Assembly (NCBI GenBank): GCA_026414565.1
Contig: JAOAIT010000023.1
Location: 1-39,861, forward strand
Direction of reading: 5' to 3'
Origin: Verrucomicrobiia bacterium
GTDB taxonomy: Bacteria; Verrucomicrobiota; Verrucomicrobiia; Limisphaerales; Fontisphaeraceae
Length of the DNA stretch: 39,861 nt
The position numbers and the translations under genes are program-made. Below the pieces are notes generated by a model, which saw only the letters and a list, made by a program, of their open reading frames with translations, was not told the origin of the DNA and did not search any database. Shown one piece after another: positions 1 through 6,426 of the stretch (position 1 is the first letter of the stretch; each line of letters opens with the position of its first letter).

Positions 1-26
1 CTCCTGGCCCACGCCCAGACCGGGGG

Positions 27-851
27 CTAGGCCGTCAAAATCAGGGCGGCCCGCGCCGTGCTTGCCGGTTTGACCGCCAGCAAAACGTCATACGACAAAA
101 ATATCGCCCGGTTGTTGGCCGCCGCCCAAACCACCGATAGAATTTCCAGCCCCAGCCCTTCCACAGGCACCCGCCGCACCATCATCCGCTCGCTGATCCC
201 GACCGACGGCAGGGGCAGGCCCACGCACACCACCAGGGCCGCCGGATCTATCACCGCCCCCAGCACCCCCGACGGCAGCCCGGCCATCTCGTGCACCGCC
301 ACAAAGCCCGGCAGGGTCCACCGGTTGCCCAGCGGCTTCAATTCCCCGGCCAGCGCCGAATACGCCGCCGTGGCCAGCAGCAGACACCGCCGCCCCGTCG
401 GCACCGCCTGCCGACAGGCCGCCACCGCCTGCGGCCCGAAATTCTCCGCCGTGCCTGTCCAGGCCGTGTTGCTGAAGTTGGTCGGCTTCAATTCCGCCGC
501 CACCCGGCCCATAATCCCGGCCTCCAGGGCGCGCAAGGTGCTGGCCGCCAGCCAGCCCAGCGCCGCGCCGTCCTGGATGTCATTGTTCGACAAGTGCGCC
601 CCCGCCGATAAATGCACCGGCTGCATCCCCACCGCGTCAATCACCGCGTCGGCCCCCGCCTCGAAATTGACCGGGTTCTCCCGCACCGCGGCCACCGCCG
701 CCACCACCGGCACCGACACCTCCCGGCTGCACCCCGGCCTTTCCAACAGCGGGATTAACGTGGCAAAGTCGCGCAACGGGGCCAGCAGACCGGGCGCCTG
801 GGCCACGGCCACCTGGGCCACTTGTTCCACAGGTAACAAGGTATTCGCCAT
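27..851 (-). CDS. Candidate HK97-fold major capsid protein
   Basis: The 274-residue protein has the layout of small HK97-fold coat proteins. A helical N-terminus (about 1-40) is followed by a beta stretch around SREVSVPVV (42-50). A central helix spans about 95-120. There is a 'G-x-P-G-F' turn (175-190), a 'DPAALVVCVGLP' segment (202-213) like the 'adp.Al' segment of coat proteins, and a closing beta stretch with an aromatic 'LSYDVLLAVKP' ending in hydrophobics. I chose the ATG at 851 because AAGGAA lies a few bases upstream; the same frame stays open to 1082 but that extension is Gly/Ala low complexity and overlaps the gene before it. It follows a coiled-coil protein gene, the usual scaffold-capsid order. 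Identification is by pattern only; a fold prediction would settle it. Confidence 0.55.
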   Translation of the reverse strand: MANTLLPVEQVAQVAVAQAPGLLAPLRDFATLIPLLERPGCSREVSVPVVAAVAAVRENPVNFEAGADAVIDAVGMQPVHLSAGAHLSNNDIQDGAALGWLAASTLRALEAGIMGRVAAELKPTNFSNTAWTGTAENFGPQAVAACRQAVPTGRRCLLLATAAYSALAGELKPLGNRWTLPGFVAVHEMAGLPSGVLGAVIDPAALVVCVGLPLPSVGISERMMVRRVPVEGLGLEILSVVWAAANNRAIFLSYDVLLAVKPASTARAALILTA

Positions 852-871
852 AAGGTTTCCTTGGGTTGGGG

Positions 872-1441
872 TTAAATGGTCAGGTAGTAGCGCAAAAAAT
901 GCCTGGGCGAGTAGGCCACCCCGGGCCGACATTTCTGCTGGTAGCGCACCGACTCCAGCATCTTTTGCAATAGCACCACCCGCACGGGGCTCGCCTCCAG
1001 CGGGTTGGCCTGCTGCTCTTTCTCCAGCAGCTTGGCCAGGTGTGCCTCCACCCGCTCCACCACCGCCAGCATCAAATCCCATACGCTGCGCGTCACCTCG
1101 GCCTGCATCTCATAAATCGCGCTCTGTTGCACCCGGTGCTGCTCAGACAAGGTCTCCGCGTCATACACAAACGGCGGCGGCGTGCCGTCCAAAATGCTTT
1201 GCTTCAACTGCCGCACCAGTTCATCCCGCGCTTTGCTGCTGCTGAACGGCACTTCCTTCTTGGCTTGCAGCGCGTCATACTGCGCCTGCGCCGCCCGCAG
1301 CTTCTTCAATTCGCCGTTGCTCACCAGCTCGGCCCCCTTCAGAAACTCGTCATACAGCCGCTTCCACCCCAGCCGGTTCACCTCGTACATCGCCGCGGCC
1401 ACCGCCTCGGCATCTTTCCGGTCTTGTTCAGAATAGTTCAT
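872..1441 (-). CDS. Coiled-coil protein upstream of capsid-like gene (possible scaffold)
   Basis: This 189-residue, highly charged, almost wholly helical protein matches no family I recognise. It is rich in Lys, Glu, Gln and Ala, with long amphipathic stretches (about 10-60 and 85-160) that look like coiled coil, and has no signal peptide or membrane segment. The ATG at 1441 was preferred because GGAAGG lies 4 bases upstream; ATG 1465 and a further start at 1483 are in frame. It ends 20 bases before the capsid-like gene and starts 55 bases after the HTH gene, so the three are probably co-transcribed. Scaffold proteins are helical and sit directly upstream of coat genes, so scaffold is the working inference; a portal-associated or regulatory role is equally open. 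Confidence 0.55.
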   Translation of the reverse strand: MNYSEQDRKDAEAVAAAMYEVNRLGWKRLYDEFLKGAELVSNGELKKLRAAQAQYDALQAKKEVPFSSSKARDELVRQLKQSILDGTPPPFVYDAETLSEQHRVQQSAIYEMQAEVTRSVWDLMLAVVERVEAHLAKLLEKEQQANPLEASPVRVVLLQKMLESVRYQQKCRPGVAYSPRHFLRYYLTI

Positions 1442-1496
1442 ACGTCCTTCCACCAAGAGGGTCATTGTCAACCCCCCCGCCACGCAACCGGCACAG

Positions 1497-1823
1497 TTAC
1501 AAGGTCTTGCGCTGGATTTTTGTCAACAGGACACTTACCCGCTGGCGGCTCAAACCCAAAGACCGCGCCAGGGCCGCCGCGCTCTTGTAGGGCAACACCC
1601 CCAGCATGTAGCACAGCAGCAACACCCGCTGCCCCACCCGCCGGGGGTTCTTCTCCGCCCCGTCCACCAGATATTGCAACAACCGGATCACCACTTCCTG
1701 CCGCGCCCGCGCCTCCTCCGCCTCCGCCGCCTCCGCCGCGTCCTGCGGATACTCAAAGGCCACCACCGGCACCAGGTGGCCCTGGTCATCGTACAGGCAA
1801 CCGTCAGGGGGATTAGGTGTCAT
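1497..1823 (-). CDS. Small HTH DNA-binding protein of the element
   Basis: The 108-residue protein has an acidic, Ala/Glu-rich middle (about 28-45) and a C-terminal helix-turn-helix around 'ARSLGLSRQRVSVLLTKIQ' (85-104), which resembles sigma-region-4 or transposase-type HTHs. The C-terminus ends almost on the recognition helix. It could be a transcription regulator or a small-terminase-like DNA-binding protein, since such proteins also carry an N- or C-terminal HTH near the capsid module. The start ATG lies inside the right-hand side of a perfect 8-base inverted repeat on the minus strand, and no good ribosome-binding site is visible, which points to control at this site. It is the first gene of a three-gene run toward the capsid-like gene. 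Confidence 0.65.
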   Translation of the reverse strand: MTPNPPDGCLYDDQGHLVPVVAFEYPQDAAEAAEAEEARARQEVVIRLLQYLVDGAEKNPRRVGQRVLLLCYMLGVLPYKSAAALARSLGLSRQRVSVLLTKIQRKTL

Positions 1824-1842
1824 TTTAACGTTTATTAAAATG
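1821..1842. promoter_or_regulatory. Palindrome overlapping the HTH gene start
   Basis: CATTTTAA (1821-1828) and TTAAAATG (1835-1842) are perfect inverted copies with a 6-base spacer. The first copy contains the start codon of the HTH gene on the minus strand. An autoregulatory operator or a translation-blocking hairpin both fit; the position is observed, the role is inferred. Confidence 0.5.
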
Positions 1843-2054
1843 TCATAAGGAATCTCTTAAGCGGTTCTAATGGTACGGGTACCGCTGCGGGGCGGTCTTT
1901 GGACAAATTTGGCCCAACCGCTGCAATGGCGTTTAATCGCTCTAAAATGGCGTTGTAGCGCACTTTGGGGGTTGTCCGCTGCCTCAGCGGGCGACAGGAA
2001 TAATCGTTTATAGGGCATTTTAACATTAGCGACGGGGGCTGGATTCCGGCCCAC

Positions 2055-2115
2055 GGAAATTTTTCCGCTTCCGTTTTCCGCAGCCCTATAAGGGCGCGGA
2101 AACGGAAAAATTTCC
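2055..2115. repeat. Large nested inverted repeat
   Basis: Three stacked arms pair across a 3-base loop: GGAAATTTTTCCG (2055-2067) with its complement at 2103-2115, TTTCCGC (2075-2081) with 2096-2102, and GCCCT (2083-2087) with AGGGC (2091-2095). Seven bases (2068-2074) bulge on the left side and one base at 2082 is unpaired. The bulge repeats the TTCCG word of the arms, so the structure also reads as iterated TTCCG motifs. It could form a 25-bp cruciform or RNA hairpin. Confidence 0.75.
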
Positions 2116-2142
2116 ACGGAATTTCCATGGAATTCCATGGAA
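2112..2142. repeat. Three tandem palindromic decamers (TTCCAYGGAA)
   Basis: TTCCACGGAA (2112-2121), TTCCATGGAA (2123-2132) and TTCCATGGAA (2133-2142) are each palindromic or nearly so and spaced 10-11 bases, about one helical turn. A further GTGGAAAG follows at about 2149. This is the pattern of iterons or a cooperative operator, right after the stop codon of the replication ATPase gene. Confidence 0.75.
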
Positions 2143-2156
2143 AGCGCGTGGAAAGA

Positions 2157-3776
2157 TTACACGATGGGGGAAAAGGTATTGGTTCTGGTGTCATGAGCAA
2201 TGGTTGTACCCGTGGCCTTATTTATTAGGTCGTATGCTTTTGATTTCCCGATGCCTTTCTCAGTCATCAATTTTCTTACTAGCGCTGCCTTCGGCATGCT
2301 AGGTTCACACAACTGGCGTACTACCTCCACGGAAAAACCCTGTTGGTATTTTACCGGTTTCGTAATTCTCTCACGCCAACCCCCCAAGTCCGCGTTGGGG
2401 TCAACCGTGTAAATCATGGTTTCGGGGTCAAGCCGTGCAACAAACGTTGGAAATTCCCGCCCGTCTGAGCATTTGCCGCAGCTTACCACGACCGCATCGT
2501 TCGTATTCTCTTCATACGCCACTATGTTGATTTGCCCCCGTGTCCAACCCAGCAACACTTTTGAGTTACGCGCAAAACTTCCCCGCTCATATCCGGTTGC
2601 CTTGATGGCGGCGGCTCGCCCTGTCAAGCTATGGTGAATTAACACTATGGCCCGCGCCGGGTTGCCGCTCCGGATTGTACTGCGCAGCCATTGCAGGGTA
2701 TTAAACATGTCTTGGTCACTGTTGGGATCACCAAGAATGAAGTAGTTTAGCGGATCAATAATCACGAGATCAGCTAGGGCCCGGTCGCAATATCTCGCTA
2801 AACTAACCAGGGATTCAGTCTTTCCAGGCTGCATGTCCTGAACGATTTGCTGGGGCAAAAAACGGACGTTGGCGTCAACCTTCTGCCAGTCCTCCGGTTC
2901 CACCCACCGACGCAATGCTGTTAAATCACGATGCAACCGATGGTGTCCATTCTCGGCTTGAACGACCAGAATACGCAACGGGCCGTTGTGGGTTTGAATG
3001 TTTAGAAAAGGCCGCCCCGTTGCCAAACATACAGCTAATTGCAAGGCCAACCGACTTTTACCGACGCCCGCCGGGCCAGCAATGACCATTTGCCCGCCAC
3101 GGGTTAGTAAAAAATCACCCAGCAAACAAACTTGGGGGTCTGGCAGCGTGGAAATGATGGTTTCAGGAGACAACAGATCGCCTGTCTCAGCCAAGGTCAT
3201 TTCTAAACGGCCCAATTTATCCTTAGTCAGGGCAATTAATTCCTTGGAATTAGCCCCCGGCTGAGACAGCCCCTGTATTACTTCCGACGAACATTTGAGC
3301 AGTTGCCGTTTCAGGTACGCCTCGCGCAGCCGTCCCAGGTAATAGTCCAGGTTGACATCCGACCAGCCCTTGTCGGACAGATAACCGGCGTACTGCACCA
3401 AATGGGATTTGTTGGCTTTCGACAGCGCCTCGGTTAGCACCTCGATGTCCGGCGTGATGCCCTGCTGGTGCAGATCGCGGGCCACCAGGAAGATTTCCTG
3501 ATTGCGCAAATCAAAGAAGCAATCGGGGGACACCGCAAAAATCTTGTTCGTCACGTCGGCCTTGTCGCAATGCACCAGTAAAATGCCCAGGACGGTTTGC
3601 TCAGCCTCCGGGTCTTGGGGGGGCAACGTCTCTGTCTGGGCCGCGCCATTACGGCCGCCGTGCTGGCCATTTTTCCCTTGCACCGGCCCCGCCGTTGGGC
3701 TAAGTTGCCGGTGGTTAATAGTATGGCCGCCTTGCTGACCCCCGGCAGGCGGCCTCGCGCTTTCCAGGGGGGTCAT
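2157..3776 (-). CDS. Replication ATPase: DnaB N-terminal domain plus RepA/AAA_25-like motor
   Basis: The 539-residue protein joins a DnaB-type N-terminal domain (about 52-150, starting 'PPQDPEAEQTVLG') to a hexameric-helicase-type RecA core of the RepA family. Visible are Walker A GPAGVGKS (234-241), an acidic residue in 'QAENG' (273-277), Walker B LVIID (337-341) and a paired His in 'LIHHS' (379-383). The C-terminus (about 483-525) looks like a winged helix. It most likely unwinds the element's origin or loads host replication proteins. The start is the ATG at 3776, which overlaps the TGA of the upstream HTH gene (ATGA), so translation is probably coupled; residues 1-50 are Gly/Gln-rich linker. 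A structured repeat region begins right after its stop. Confidence 0.85.
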   Translation of the reverse strand: MTPLESARPPAGGQQGGHTINHRQLSPTAGPVQGKNGQHGGRNGAAQTETLPPQDPEAEQTVLGILLVHCDKADVTNKIFAVSPDCFFDLRNQEIFLVARDLHQQGITPDIEVLTEALSKANKSHLVQYAGYLSDKGWSDVNLDYYLGRLREAYLKRQLLKCSSEVIQGLSQPGANSKELIALTKDKLGRLEMTLAETGDLLSPETIISTLPDPQVCLLGDFLLTRGGQMVIAGPAGVGKSRLALQLAVCLATGRPFLNIQTHNGPLRILVVQAENGHHRLHRDLTALRRWVEPEDWQKVDANVRFLPQQIVQDMQPGKTESLVSLARYCDRALADLVIIDPLNYFILGDPNSDQDMFNTLQWLRSTIRSGNPARAIVLIHHSLTGRAAAIKATGYERGSFARNSKVLLGWTRGQINIVAYEENTNDAVVVSCGKCSDGREFPTFVARLDPETMIYTVDPNADLGGWRERITKPVKYQQGFSVEVVRQLCEPSMPKAALVRKLMTEKGIGKSKAYDLINKATGTTIAHDTRTNTFSPIV

Positions 3777-4012
3777 ACGATGGGCTCCTTCCGCACGCCA
3801 TACTGCCGGGACAACAGCCACTGCATGATAGTTTTCCGGTGAAAAATAACTCGTCGCCTGGACAACTTGACATAGGGGATTTCACCGCGAGCTACCAAGT
3901 CGGCCACGGTGCGCTTGGAACAGCGCAACAGCCCCGGCAGTTCATTGTAAGTCAAAAACTCGTTATCCGCACCTTCTGCGGCCTTGGTACTGTAAGCAAC
4001 GCTATTTTGCAT
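3773..4012 (-). CDS. Excisionase-type helix-turn-helix protein
   Basis: The 79-residue protein carries the MerR/excisionase-like fold of the 'DNA-binding domain, excisionase family': 'FLTYNELPGLLRCSKRTVADL' then a wing 'GEIPYVKLSRRRVIFHRKTIMQWL'. These small proteins bend DNA for excisive recombination or regulate early genes. I start at ATG 4012; a TTG at 4045 is also in frame and neither has a clear ribosome-binding site. The stop overlaps the ATPase start (ATGA). The palindrome at 4051-4081 lies just upstream and would fit an operator for this two-gene unit. Confidence 0.78.
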   Translation of the reverse strand: MQNSVAYSTKAAEGADNEFLTYNELPGLLRCSKRTVADLVARGEIPYVKLSRRRVIFHRKTIMQWLLSRQYGVRKEPIV

Positions 4013-4050
4013 ACAGCCGCCGTAGAGATGCGAATTTGATGCCAAGTTTG

Positions 4051-4081
4051 GTGTGACAAAAAGGCCGGGTTTCTGTCACAC
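4051..4081. promoter_or_regulatory. Operator-like inverted repeat GTGTGACA
   Basis: GTGTGACA (4051-4058) and TGTCACAC (4074-4081) are perfect inverted copies with a 15-base spacer; centre-to-centre distance is 23 bases, about two helical turns. It sits 39 bases upstream of the ATG of the excisionase-like gene, in the only sizeable gap (4013-4165) of the early gene run. A dimeric repressor site is the simplest reading. Confidence 0.6.
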
Positions 4082-4165
4082 CTTAATCATCCTGATATGC
4101 CAATGACGACTTTCTTAGTGGATATTTATGCTGTAGATGACCGTCCGATAAAGGGGCTGATAAAA

Positions 4166-4969
4166 TTAGGGGCTAAGATGAGCCTTTCCGAACATTTGCT
4201 TAAACTCTTTGATTTGCTCTTTACTGGGTAGCAATTTTAGTCTTGCGGCAGTCTTTCGTAGGGCTTCCGGGGTAATGGGGCGACCAAGTGCGGCCTGTGC
4301 CTTCTGGGCCATGCTCGTCCATGTTGGGAAGCGACCGTTTATGGCTGGTGTTGCGTAATCCTCAATAAGCCAGGCTTCAATGCTGTTGGACAAGCGAAAT
4401 TGTAGGATTGCCTTGGCCAATTCAAGACAAGCTAATCGCTCGTTTTCATCAATAGGCACCCTTACAAACTGGTCTGTTTCTGGACTATTTTCAGGCGGTT
4501 TCTTGGCCAAATCAACCGCCACGCTAAAGATGTAATTTTGGCGGTCTGGGCTGATTAAAAGGGCGTATTTGCGCCACACCTTTTGCACGGCTTTACTATA
4601 AAACCCGTACAAAGCCTTCCAGCCGCCAGAGCAATCAAAAGGAAGTCTCCCATCCATGCGAAAGTAAGGCATGGCGTTAGTGTCGCCCTTTGGGCCTGGC
4701 AGAGTCGGACGCCTATTTCTCGAACACATCCGGCAATGAGTCGCATTACGGCTTATGATGGCGTTGCATTGCTGGCAGAAGTTAGAACGGCGGCGGCGCT
4801 TGAAAAATTCTTTGACCTCACTAAGCTCGGCGGCCCGGGCATCGTCACCCTCCCTTCTGGCCTGCACTATTTGCTCCTTGATGTGTTGCAGCGCCTTTAT
4901 AGCTCCTTGCTTCCCCGACACATTAAAACCAATGCCAGCAATGGCTACAGCTTTTTTTAGGTTCATCAT
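4166..4969 (-). CDS. Zinc-ribbon protein coupled to integrase, unknown function
   Basis: I do not recognise a family for this 267-residue protein. The N-terminus (about 5-25) is weakly hydrophobic, residues 28-62 are charged helix ending in KRRRR, and a zinc ribbon follows with C65-x2-C68-x10-C79-x2-C82. The rest (about 95-267) is mixed helix and strand with aromatic segments ('GGWKALYGFY', 'AWLIEDYATPAI') and a Lys-rich tail. The start codon overlaps the integrase stop as ATGA, so it is probably translated with the integrase. The base composition is visibly less GC-rich than the integrase. A DNA- or RNA-binding accessory protein of the element is an inference from the zinc ribbon and position only. 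Confidence 0.7.
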   Translation of the reverse strand: MMNLKKAVAIAGIGFNVSGKQGAIKALQHIKEQIVQARREGDDARAAELSEVKEFFKRRRRSNFCQQCNAIISRNATHCRMCSRNRRPTLPGPKGDTNAMPYFRMDGRLPFDCSGGWKALYGFYSKAVQKVWRKYALLISPDRQNYIFSVAVDLAKKPPENSPETDQFVRVPIDENERLACLELAKAILQFRLSNSIEAWLIEDYATPAINGRFPTWTSMAQKAQAALGRPITPEALRKTAARLKLLPSKEQIKEFKQMFGKAHLSP

Positions 4970-6264
4970 AAGCCACCTACCTTTCCGGGCAGCAGCACCA
5001 CATTTTCCGCCGCGTCGGGTTTGATATTGAACCAGCAAACGGCGGCCTCGCGGGTGACCAGTTCCCGGTAATGTTGAAAAATGATTTGTGGGCTGTTGCC
5101 CGCCTCCAGGGCCACCTTGGCCGTGTCGCCCAACAGCGCCAGGCGATAGGAAATAAAGCTGTGCCGAAAACCATTACGCTTGCGTGACACTTTGGCCGCG
5201 GCATGGACTTCCCGCATGGTTTTGTGCAACAAATTCTCTGAATTCGGCCAGACGGGGCCCGCAAGGTGGGCGCAGGGGGCCAGCCATGCCGCCAGCGCTG
5301 GGCAAATCGGCACCAGACGCCGCTGGCGCGTCTTGGCTATGCGAGCGCCGATTTCCACATAACCGGGCCGACCAAAGACATCCTCCCAGCGCAAGCGCCG
5401 CAATTCCGCGTCGCGCAGACCGGCCAGGCCCAGCAAAGCCAGCACCGGCCGCAGTATTTGCGGGGCGGCGGCCAGCAGGGTCTGGTATTCCTGCGGGGTG
5501 TAAATCTCGATGTCCTCCACGCCTGCACGCTCCATTTGCAAGATGGGGCTTTCCAATAAGCGCGTTTGCCGCGGCAGATAGTCCTTGCTGATGCACCACC
5601 GCAGAAACTTCCCCAGATCGGCGCGATAGTGATTGCGAGACTTGGGCGAATAGCTCGCCAGCCGGGAAAAAAACGCATCCAGGTTGGCCTGGCTTAAATC
5701 GGTGGTCTGGTGGCCGGGCAAGGTCTCGGCCAGCAACCGCAGGTGCTTCTGCACGTGCCGGAAATAATCGGGGGACAGTTGCGGGCGATCACCGGGCCGG
5801 GCTGGAAGGGTGCGCGACTCAATAAGGCGCAAGTATTCCTCCACTGCCTTATCCAAGCCCACAGGGTGCACGCTGGCAGTGGCTTCCCGGTATTTGTCCA
5901 CCACTTCCACCAGGGCCAAACTGCCCAAGCGGCGGGCGGCATCTGTGAAAAGCCGCACGGCGGCGGTCAAAGACAACGGCTTGCCGGTTTGTCGGCAGTA
6001 GTCCCCCAGCAATTCCAGGGCAGCGCGGGCATCCTCGGTTTCCTTGGGGGAAAGGGCCGGAGCGCGTCCGTGGCGTGCCAGTTGCTCGCAAACCTCCCGG
6101 GCGCGATCAAGCGCCTCGCCATAGGTGCTAAAGGACTCCATGATGCGCTCGCCGCCCCGGTAATAAGCAATCCGGTAGCGCTGTTTGGCAGGGGTGCGCC
6201 CGTAAATGACCACTTTTTGCGTATTGCTGCCGCGTCCTTTGGTTATGGTTTGCGGAAACTTCAC
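4966..6264 (-). CDS. Tyrosine-type site-specific integrase
   Basis: The 432-residue protein has a SAM-like core-binding domain (about 135-235) and a C-terminal catalytic domain (about 255-415). Likely catalytic residues are R284 in 'GLRDAELRRL', K311 in 'IAKTRQRRLV', R367 with H368 in 'NGFRHSF' and nucleophile Y399 in 'IIFQHYREL'. The first position of the usual HxxR box is N364 and the later His/Trp position is N390, so two conserved residues differ. The start is a GTG with GTGAGG upstream. The gene reads away from the tRNA-Val and its start is 87 bases from the tRNA 3' end, as expected if that end is attB. Its stop overlaps the zinc-ribbon gene. It would integrate and, with the excisionase-like protein, excise the element. 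Confidence 0.92.
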   Translation of the reverse strand: MKFPQTITKGRGSNTQKVVIYGRTPAKQRYRIAYYRGGERIMESFSTYGEALDRAREVCEQLARHGRAPALSPKETEDARAALELLGDYCRQTGKPLSLTAAVRLFTDAARRLGSLALVEVVDKYREATASVHPVGLDKAVEEYLRLIESRTLPARPGDRPQLSPDYFRHVQKHLRLLAETLPGHQTTDLSQANLDAFFSRLASYSPKSRNHYRADLGKFLRWCISKDYLPRQTRLLESPILQMERAGVEDIEIYTPQEYQTLLAAAPQILRPVLALLGLAGLRDAELRRLRWEDVFGRPGYVEIGARIAKTRQRRLVPICPALAAWLAPCAHLAGPVWPNSENLLHKTMREVHAAAKVSRKRNGFRHSFISYRLALLGDTAKVALEAGNSPQIIFQHYRELVTREAAVCWFNIKPDAAENVVLLPGKVGGL

Positions 6265-6298
6265 TTTGGCCTCACCCGCCCGGGAACCGCCTTTTATC

Positions 6299-6316
6299 TG
6301 TGTCCAACTTGTGTCC
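6299..6316. repeat. Candidate integrase arm-type sites (TGTGTCC x2)
   Basis: TGTGTCC occurs at 6299-6305 and again at 6310-6316, 11 bases apart and so on the same helix face, between the integrase start and the tRNA 3' end. Directly repeated heptamers in this position are typical of integrase arm sites. A small hairpin (CCGCT 6315-6319 with AGCGG 6322-6326) with four Ts follows. Confidence 0.45.
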
Positions 6317-6351
6317 GCTGAAGCGGTTTTGGTGTTTTTCTCAGGAAAACA

Positions 6352-6426
6352 TGGTGCGCGCTGGAGGACTTGAACCTCCGACCTCTTCCGTGTGAAGGAA
6401 GCGCTCTTCCACTAAGCTAAGCGCGC
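6352..6426 (-). tRNA. tRNA-Val (CAC anticodon)
   Basis: A complete cloverleaf reads on the minus strand: acceptor GCGCGCT/AGCGCGC, D stem GCTT/GAGC, anticodon stem CTTCC/GGAAG with loop TTCACAC (anticodon CAC, codon GTG), variable AGGTC, T stem GGAGG/CCTCC with loop TTCAAGT, discriminator A and an encoded CCA (6352-6354). The stems are fully paired apart from a G-T pair in the D stem. The intact 3' half next to the integrase fits an element that restored the tRNA on integration. Confidence 0.96.

Follow-up and report, generated by a model that had tools for sequence, protein, structure and literature searches.

The window analysed here is the whole of a 39,861-nt stretch from a Verrucomicrobiia bacterium (contig JAOAIT010000023.1 of assembly GCA_026414565.1; contig C23 of the 71-contig genome that we label G000), and our subject is the putative integrative element that occupies its first 6.4 kb next to a tRNA-Val gene. 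Seven long open reading frames (ORFs), all of them intact and all on the minus strand, lie between positions 27 and 6264. Read leftward from the tRNA, they encode an integrase, a zinc-ribbon protein, an HTH_17 protein, an ATPase, a 108-aa helix-turn-helix (HTH) protein, a helical protein and a capsid protein. The individual features are as follows.

1..141, no strand: 141 bases shared exactly with the end of contig C15, apparently an assembly overlap in the 3' end of the capsid gene
27..851, minus strand: major capsid protein (MCP) homologue, HK97-fold by profile comparison (hhalign 99.4%), 274 aa; the terminal gene on the left side
872..1483, minus strand: helical protein of at most 203 aa (189 aa from the ATG at 1441), in the pre-capsid slot
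1497..1823, minus strand: 108-aa protein with a C-terminal HTH (weak MarR_2 match, 0.0016), the family marker A11
2051..2154, no strand: nested inverted repeats between genes, including three copies of TTCCAYGGAA, a candidate replication origin or operator
2157..3821, minus strand: replication ATPase, DnaB_N (1e-13) plus AAA_25 (3e-25)
3773..4045, minus strand: HTH_17 DNA-binding protein of excisionase/AlpA type (PF12728 2e-9; phrog_66 3e-7)
4166..5038, minus strand: zinc-ribbon-like protein, its start more likely at about 4966-4969; shared with the related locus L100 (33%, 7e-28)
4966..6264, minus strand: tyrosine integrase, 432 aa (phrog_1 3e-20)
6352..6426, minus strand: tRNA-Val(cac), with the presumed attachment site at its 3' end

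Overall, the strand-coherent block of integration, regulation, replication and capsid-like genes at tRNA-Val that an earlier inspection of the letters (the sequence-only reading) had described was recovered as ORFs, tRNA and gene families, as was its observation that lysis, tail and terminase genes are absent. Specifically, Pfam and PHROGs gave none of the seven window proteins a convincing match to terminase, portal, tail or lysis families, the sole terminase-named match being that of the HTH_17 protein to phrog_141 'terminase small subunit' at 0.36. The same reading had paired a scaffold with a capsid-like gene; the capsid half is borne out by the profiles described below, and behind the scaffold label stand position and predicted helicity only. 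The 189-aa form of this helical protein is predicted to be all-helical in a low-confidence model (mean predicted local distance difference test score, pLDDT, of 54), and its place suggests a role as scaffold or in size determination. The G+C content of the element is 57.7% (positions 1-6351), as compared with 61.5% for positions 6430-39861. The hairpin region stands out as well, the stretch 2030-2160 giving a DNA fold z of -8.45, with none of 200 shuffles as low. For the remainder of the window (6.5-39.9 kb), the analysis took in tRNAs, base composition, synteny and, as far as 9 kb, ORFs.

Identification of the capsid gene required profiles, because direct searches gave nothing of weight. The window protein (P0001) had no match in Pfam, PHROGs or phage records, a direct search of the PDB returned only two nitrate reductase rows at 0.3, and among 196 genomes of the order there was, besides the protein itself, a single distant relative (27%). 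A two-sequence capsid profile found relatives in nine further genomes of the 387 in the phylum. These occupy ten places, nine of which lie beside a portal-profile match accompanied by protease and tape-measure matches, with a terminase match in six; the tenth, L041, has none of these. Three of four tailed relatives tested matched phrog_283 'major head protein' (6e-29 to 3e-22), and these three adjoin portal, GpA terminase and protease genes; the fourth, L033, scored 0.084. Moreover, profiles of the satellite-type and tailed-prophage MCPs aligned with each other at 99.4% in hhalign (E 1.5e-21, 267 aligned columns), the joint profile matched the solved MCP 8zdh at 2.6e-11, and the tailed profile alone matched 8zdh at 3.4e-10 and 8e16 at 3.5e-6. 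Judged by these profile alignments, the 274-aa window protein is an HK97-fold homologue of a tailed-phage MCP family. The tailed kind of this MCP is common in IMG/VR, with at least 134 contigs confirmed; scans of that database with P0001, the L100 capsid, the window ATPase, A4 and A10 found no relative. Two IMG/VR contigs found with A8 were discarded as proof of packaging, as they hold the same chromosomal element as the related locus L110.

Among 320 genomes of the order, 37 had a match to a nine-row MCP profile. We took 40 stretches around the matches, leaving out five contigs (three of G593, one of G028 and one of G624), and scanned these together with earlier loci, 56 in all, with profiles made for this analysis. 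A capsid domain was present in 52 and a terminase or portal match in 18. The HTH marker occurred in eight of the 52 capsid loci (the window, L071, L078, L090, L094, L099, L100 and L110) and in none of the 18 loci that a terminase or portal profile matched. The 34 capsid loci free of such a match are not called satellites on that ground, the profiles representing one terminase and one portal family.

Attachment repeats were sought at 12 loci; four are bounded by exact repeats of a tRNA 3' end, seven have no repeat, and in L082 a repeat was found outside the tRNA only. The bounded elements are L100 (47 b, tRNA-Lys, 8.3 kb), L099 (30 b, tRNA-Ser, 7.8 kb), L078 (102 b, tRNA-Ala, 11.0 kb) and L071 (28 b, tRNA-Glu, 10.2 kb). 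Each is thus a compact element between attachment repeats that carries an MCP and follows the core gene order of the window. A clear gene for terminase, portal or tail was found in none of the four, which leaves all of them short of a full set of virion genes. The sequence-only reading had proposed looking for its gene order in related genomes, and L100 repeats it from integrase through zinc ribbon, excisionase, replication gene, HTH gene and helical-protein gene to MCP. The L100 replication protein differs (D5_N/DUF5906), and there are two inserted genes, one of them small-terminase-like. Its genes, two small ORFs of 75 and 101 aa excepted, gave no match to portal, large terminase or tail, and the L100 and L099 genes scanned, all save a few small ORFs that stood outside the PHROG scan, include no portal, protease or connector. 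In both of these elements, no clear gene stands between the capsid gene and the attachment repeat. In L071 three genes follow the capsid, one of them endonuclease-like (8e-4), and in L078 a single 503-aa gene does so. Small-terminase-like genes (phrog_57, 1e-6 to 1e-18) occur in L100, L110, L247 and L243. The capsid of the relatives is under purifying selection, with dN/dS (nonsynonymous to synonymous substitution rates) of 0.17-0.32 among L094, L099 and L100, and of 0.18-0.30 among L071, L074 and L078, the latter at a dS of 1.5-2.2.

With respect to its left end, contig C23 starts 26 b beyond the capsid stop codon, and the element is cut there. The same capsid end is found on contig C15, where the 3' part of a tRNA-Thr lies 306 b past it. 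The 75-b attachment repeat on C15 recurs at an intact tRNA-Thr on C29, beside which is an integrase 38% identical to that of the window, and it is the only attachment repeat found adjoining a copy of the window capsid end. A simple joining of C15 to C23 through their 141-b overlap was set aside because the C15 repeat is tRNA-Thr and matches C29; for the same reason we read C15 and C29 as the two ends of a second, related element at tRNA-Thr, the middle of which is unassembled. The attachment repeats and end genes of this sister fit the satellite layout, and the tRNA-Val element would measure about 6.6 kb if it ended like the tRNA-Thr one. At both tRNA sites of the congeneric genome G068 we saw neither an integrase nor a capsid gene, and that genome also gave no match to the MCP or HTH profile. 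The flanks of C15, C29 and C23 occupy three distant places in G068, and a rearrangement between the tRNA-Val and tRNA-Thr elements is conceivable. Two further observations concern contig ends of this kind. At the C15 end, a tRNA-Arg(cct) (L004, 17074-19580) is followed, in inverted orientation, by the stretch of about 23 b that also follows the tRNA-Thr in both Thr attachment copies, and these flank an Rhs-like gene; the wide separation of the flanks in G068 suggests rearrangement between attachment sites. In G137, contigs L083 and L086 both end inside a near-identical capsid gene, as C15 and C23 do, and two element copies with a common capsid would explain these ends.

We also examined how the capsid gene relates to the genes around it. 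Ten rows of the MCP tree carried the satellite label, and these required three label changes, as compared with 9.3 for shuffled labels; two of the labels stand on thinner grounds, L014 (only a capsid gene, next to a tRNA) and L074 (a doubtful bin). Seven satellite MCPs (set A) fall in one strongly supported set with the tailed L089 and L033-L035, and those of L071, L074 and L078 are placed among tailed MCPs, the L078 protein being 68% identical to the MCP of the tailed L077. An HTH gene and a gene for a helical protein of about 200 aa usually precede the capsid slot. The pre-capsid proteins accompanying the two MCP sets are related to each other (hhalign 91.5%, E 9e-7), and that of set A has no match to a tailed-phage scaffold. 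A survey of 320 genomes of the order with the HTH profile gave 51 matches at E <=1e-3, many of them weak, and the 11 non-seed contigs at E <=1e-6 were examined. The L251 MCP belongs to set A, and those of L247 and L249 are of PF05065 type (2.7e-25 and 1.7e-38, respectively) and have no ~200-aa gene ahead of them. L243 has a cement/scaffold-like gene in place of an MCP, L242 is cut off after the pre-capsid gene, L245 is damaged, no head gene was found in L244, L246, L248 or L250, and L252 proved to be another HTH protein. None of the 11 contigs matched the terminase and portal profiles made for this analysis. In terms of boundaries, about 10 kb of L249 lie between 23-b repeats with a second integrase inside, so that the repeat may bound two elements; neither tRNA nor repeat was found at L247, which is hence undelimited.

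The capsid slot has therefore received MCPs of different kinds. It looks as though the HTH gene, usually with the ~200-aa gene, is the family core, and the capsid gene a frequent and not universal companion. A tentative extension, which we would put at slightly under even odds, is that the family is an adaptor (the small HTH protein, usually with the helical protein) with an interchangeable capsid slot. Its MCPs would come from at least four sources, of which two are regions of the P22-like MCP tree and two are PF05065-type families, and the shell would be swapped to fit helpers, with the rest, portal and large terminase included, borrowed.

Taken together, these observations favour a phage satellite that depends on a helper and has integrated at the tRNA-Val 3' end, a reading to which we give a probability of roughly 0.7. 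The relatives are best read, from their gene content, as a family of helper-dependent satellites in the Limisphaerales (Verrucomicrobiota), many of which have their own MCP and would borrow portal, large terminase and tail. Two options had been raised for the element beforehand. That of a capsid-encoding satellite gains from the four bounded, MCP-bearing relatives and from the sister element in the same genome; that of a tailless-type prophage loses ground, given an MCP of a tailed-phage family and the lack of any recognised packaging ATPase. The expected host group also held, relatives occurring in records of Limisphaerales and Verrucomicrobia subdivision 3, including a contig of G621, a genome of the same taxonomic order as G000.

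Beyond gene content, the mechanism we infer is as follows. Infection by a tailed helper phage would be followed by release of the satellite through integrase and excisionase, and the DnaB_N/AAA_25 protein would replicate it, perhaps from the hairpin region at 2051-2154. The small HTH protein might control or target a late step. The helical pre-capsid protein and the satellite's own MCP would build satellite-specific heads, or convert helper assembly into them, with the helper supplying portal, large terminase, maturation protease, neck, tail and lysis functions. In some relatives the small-terminase-like gene could steer packaging, as in phage-inducible chromosomal islands (PICIs). The MCP slot would be exchangeable between satellites, probably so as to match the helper.

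Several observations weigh against a satellite of this kind. The window MCP is divergent, with a highest identity of 27% and an end branch of 1.85, and its AlphaFold model, from a five-row alignment, reached a pLDDT of 34 and was not used for a fold search. The 203-aa window protein does not match the ~200-aa pre-capsid family, nor does the window offer a small-terminase match better than 0.36. An MCP was present in only three of the 11 HTH-marker contigs (L251, L247 and L249), which weighs against an MCP in every family member, and the 503-aa gene of L078 weakly matches 'minor tail protein' (0.024). The tRNA-Val element's own left end is absent from the assembly. No good second tRNA-Val copy was found among the 71 contigs, in which a 20-b tRNA-Val pattern has one exact site, that of the window, and two sites with 3 mismatches (C11 and C62). 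The portal family PF05136 is absent from G000 and from eight of ten other genomes (G643 being over the cut-off and G129 weak), and the GpA terminase family PF05876 is absent from G000 and from eight of 12 others, leaving it in four of 13, one of them weakly. No resident helper of the MCP-sharing type was thus found in G000, where the genome-wide search covered PF05136 and PF05876, and the helper could be a virulent phage or belong to a different type.

The same genome holds two other integrase loci. In L019 (C40, 725-11259) an integrase at tRNA-Met accompanies a DnaB-type ATPase, a 363-aa protein (5031-6122) with no PHROG or PDB match, and a small ATPase that matches phrog_2666 'terminase large subunit' at 2e-22 and Zot/FtsK-like families more weakly; this is possibly a tailless provirus, at a guess of double-jelly-roll type. 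On C1, an integrase in two pieces adjoins tRNA-Gly (L020, 10068-11401), probably a decayed element.

Among the alternatives to a satellite, the one that fares best, though we consider it unlikely, is that the capsid and helical proteins poison or sense phage head assembly, as anti-phage cargo on an integrative element. The lack of a helper-type portal or terminase in the carrier G000, the HTH-marker relatives without an MCP and the divergence of the window MCP would all suit such a role. Nonetheless, PADLOC gave no convincing match for five window proteins and five from relatives (best E 0.012), the MCPs align over nearly their full length with those of tailed prophages, and the small-terminase-like genes of four relatives point to packaging. 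Less probable again is a decayed tailed prophage left with integrase, replication and capsid genes, as the tailed-phage type of the MCP and the two-piece integrase on C1 might suggest. Such decay is at odds with the recurrence of attachment-bounded relatives with the same core order in several genomes, with the intact window ORFs and the purifying selection on relatives' capsids, and with the absence of the HTH marker from all 18 loci that have a terminase or portal match.

The cut left end raises the question of a larger prophage of which the contig preserves one end only, its terminase and tail genes lying in the lost left part. The missing second tRNA-Val copy and the one and three genes that follow the capsid in L078 and L071 are compatible with this; we regard it as improbable, however, as the sister copy on C15 has its attachment repeat 306 b from the same capsid end, and in L100 and L099 nothing clear separates capsid and repeat. 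A tailed prophage as such was rejected, as the visible part of the element holds no recognised large terminase, portal or tail genes. An autonomous tailless virus with an HK97-type shell would account for the element's own replication, integration and capsid genes, and we rejected it as very improbable because no packaging ATPase or portal was recognised and the ATPase matches DnaB-type replication proteins. A double-jelly-roll provirus was dismissed on the tailed-phage HK97 type of the capsid and on an ATPase that is DnaB_N/AAA_25 and not of FtsK/A32 type.

For comparison with known systems, PICIs use the capsid protein of their helper, with or without a size-redirecting protein. Some Tycheposons and virion-encapsidated integrative mobile elements (VEIMEs) carry capsid and terminase genes. 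In PLE (the phage-inducible chromosomal island-like element), the head-acting protein is TcaP. Capsid-forming PICIs (cf-PICIs) carry an MCP, maturation protease, portal, connectors, both terminase subunits and an HNH gene, and need only tails (PMC10690885); they average 14 kb and PICIs 9.5 kb (PMC10803314). The Limisphaerales elements resemble cf-PICIs in being integrative and in having an integrase, a regulator, a replication gene and their own MCP, and several capsid captures seem to have occurred here too. Going by gene content, they nonetheless fall outside the defining cf-PICI gene set: an MCP is present, but portal, protease and connectors were not recognised, nor was the combination of large terminase, small terminase and HNH gene. 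They are also smaller, at 7.8-11 kb in the four relatives (and about 6.6 kb, by extrapolation, in the window), as compared with the cf-PICI average of 14 kb (PMC10803314), and are near the PICI average of 9.5 kb. Of the PICI traits, integrase, AlpA-type regulator and replication gene are present in the window, and a small terminase was not recognised with Pfam or PHROGs. The likeness to PICIs and to phage-inducible chromosomal minimalist islands (PICMIs) extends to the AlpA/HTH_17 excisionase, a primase/helicase (DUF5906 in L100) and sometimes a small-terminase-like gene. PICMIs are described as having no capsid-remodelling gene (PMC10803314), and the MCP sets the Limisphaerales elements apart from both groups.

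Other satellites act on helper heads. Sid of P4 builds an outer cage around capsids made of the helper protein gpN, which is also the P4 capsid protein (PMC7552001), and the remodelling of ICP1 capsids is attributed to PLE (PMC10945586). By description and not by sequence, Sid and the PLE protein could be analogues of the ~200-aa pre-capsid protein, but both act on helper capsids, as opposed to an MCP of their own. The Streptomyces satellites MulchRoom and MiniFlayer share with the present elements the possession of their own capsid genes; unlike them, they have both terminase subunits and a portal, along with MCP, scaffold and adapter, and have no primase (PMC10690885). Tycheposons and VEIMEs are integrative elements of marine bacteria that have been proposed as satellites (PMC10803314). 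A phrase search found no literature linking VEIMEs with a major capsid, and none of the literature searched, outside which the primary cf-PICI, VEIME and Tycheposon papers lie, described a satellite with an MCP and neither portal nor large terminase. Titles and abstract openings on Verrucomicrobiota phage satellites likewise yielded no report of such elements.

If our interpretation is correct, these elements would represent a strategy between that of PICIs, which have no MCP, and that of cf-PICIs, which carry a whole head and packaging set, and would add a satellite family for the Verrucomicrobiota. The shell protein would then be all of the phage head that a satellite needs to carry. How much of the head must be self-made for satellite packaging, and whether a satellite MCP co-assembles with the portal and terminase of a helper, would become testable. 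The data further suggest repeated capture of capsid genes by small elements, and the HTH marker provides a handle for finding more members of the family.

Three minor observations concern the related loci. L071 and L074 have the same flanking proteins beside tRNA-Glu though their genomes belong to two different families, and one of the two contigs is probably misbinned. L093 and L105 combine a capsid gene from other capsid branches with an integrase and a replication ATPase and have no terminase or portal match; they were left out of the satellite set for a tailed-type scaffold (L093) and protease-profile matches (L105), and are perhaps further, independent capsid-bearing satellites. Finally, an ATP-dependent DNA ligase-like gene stands directly after the integrase in L071 (14774-15298; phrog_114, 3e-18), L078 (2534-3049; phrog_114, 7e-17) and L249 (5631-6260; a weaker Pfam match).

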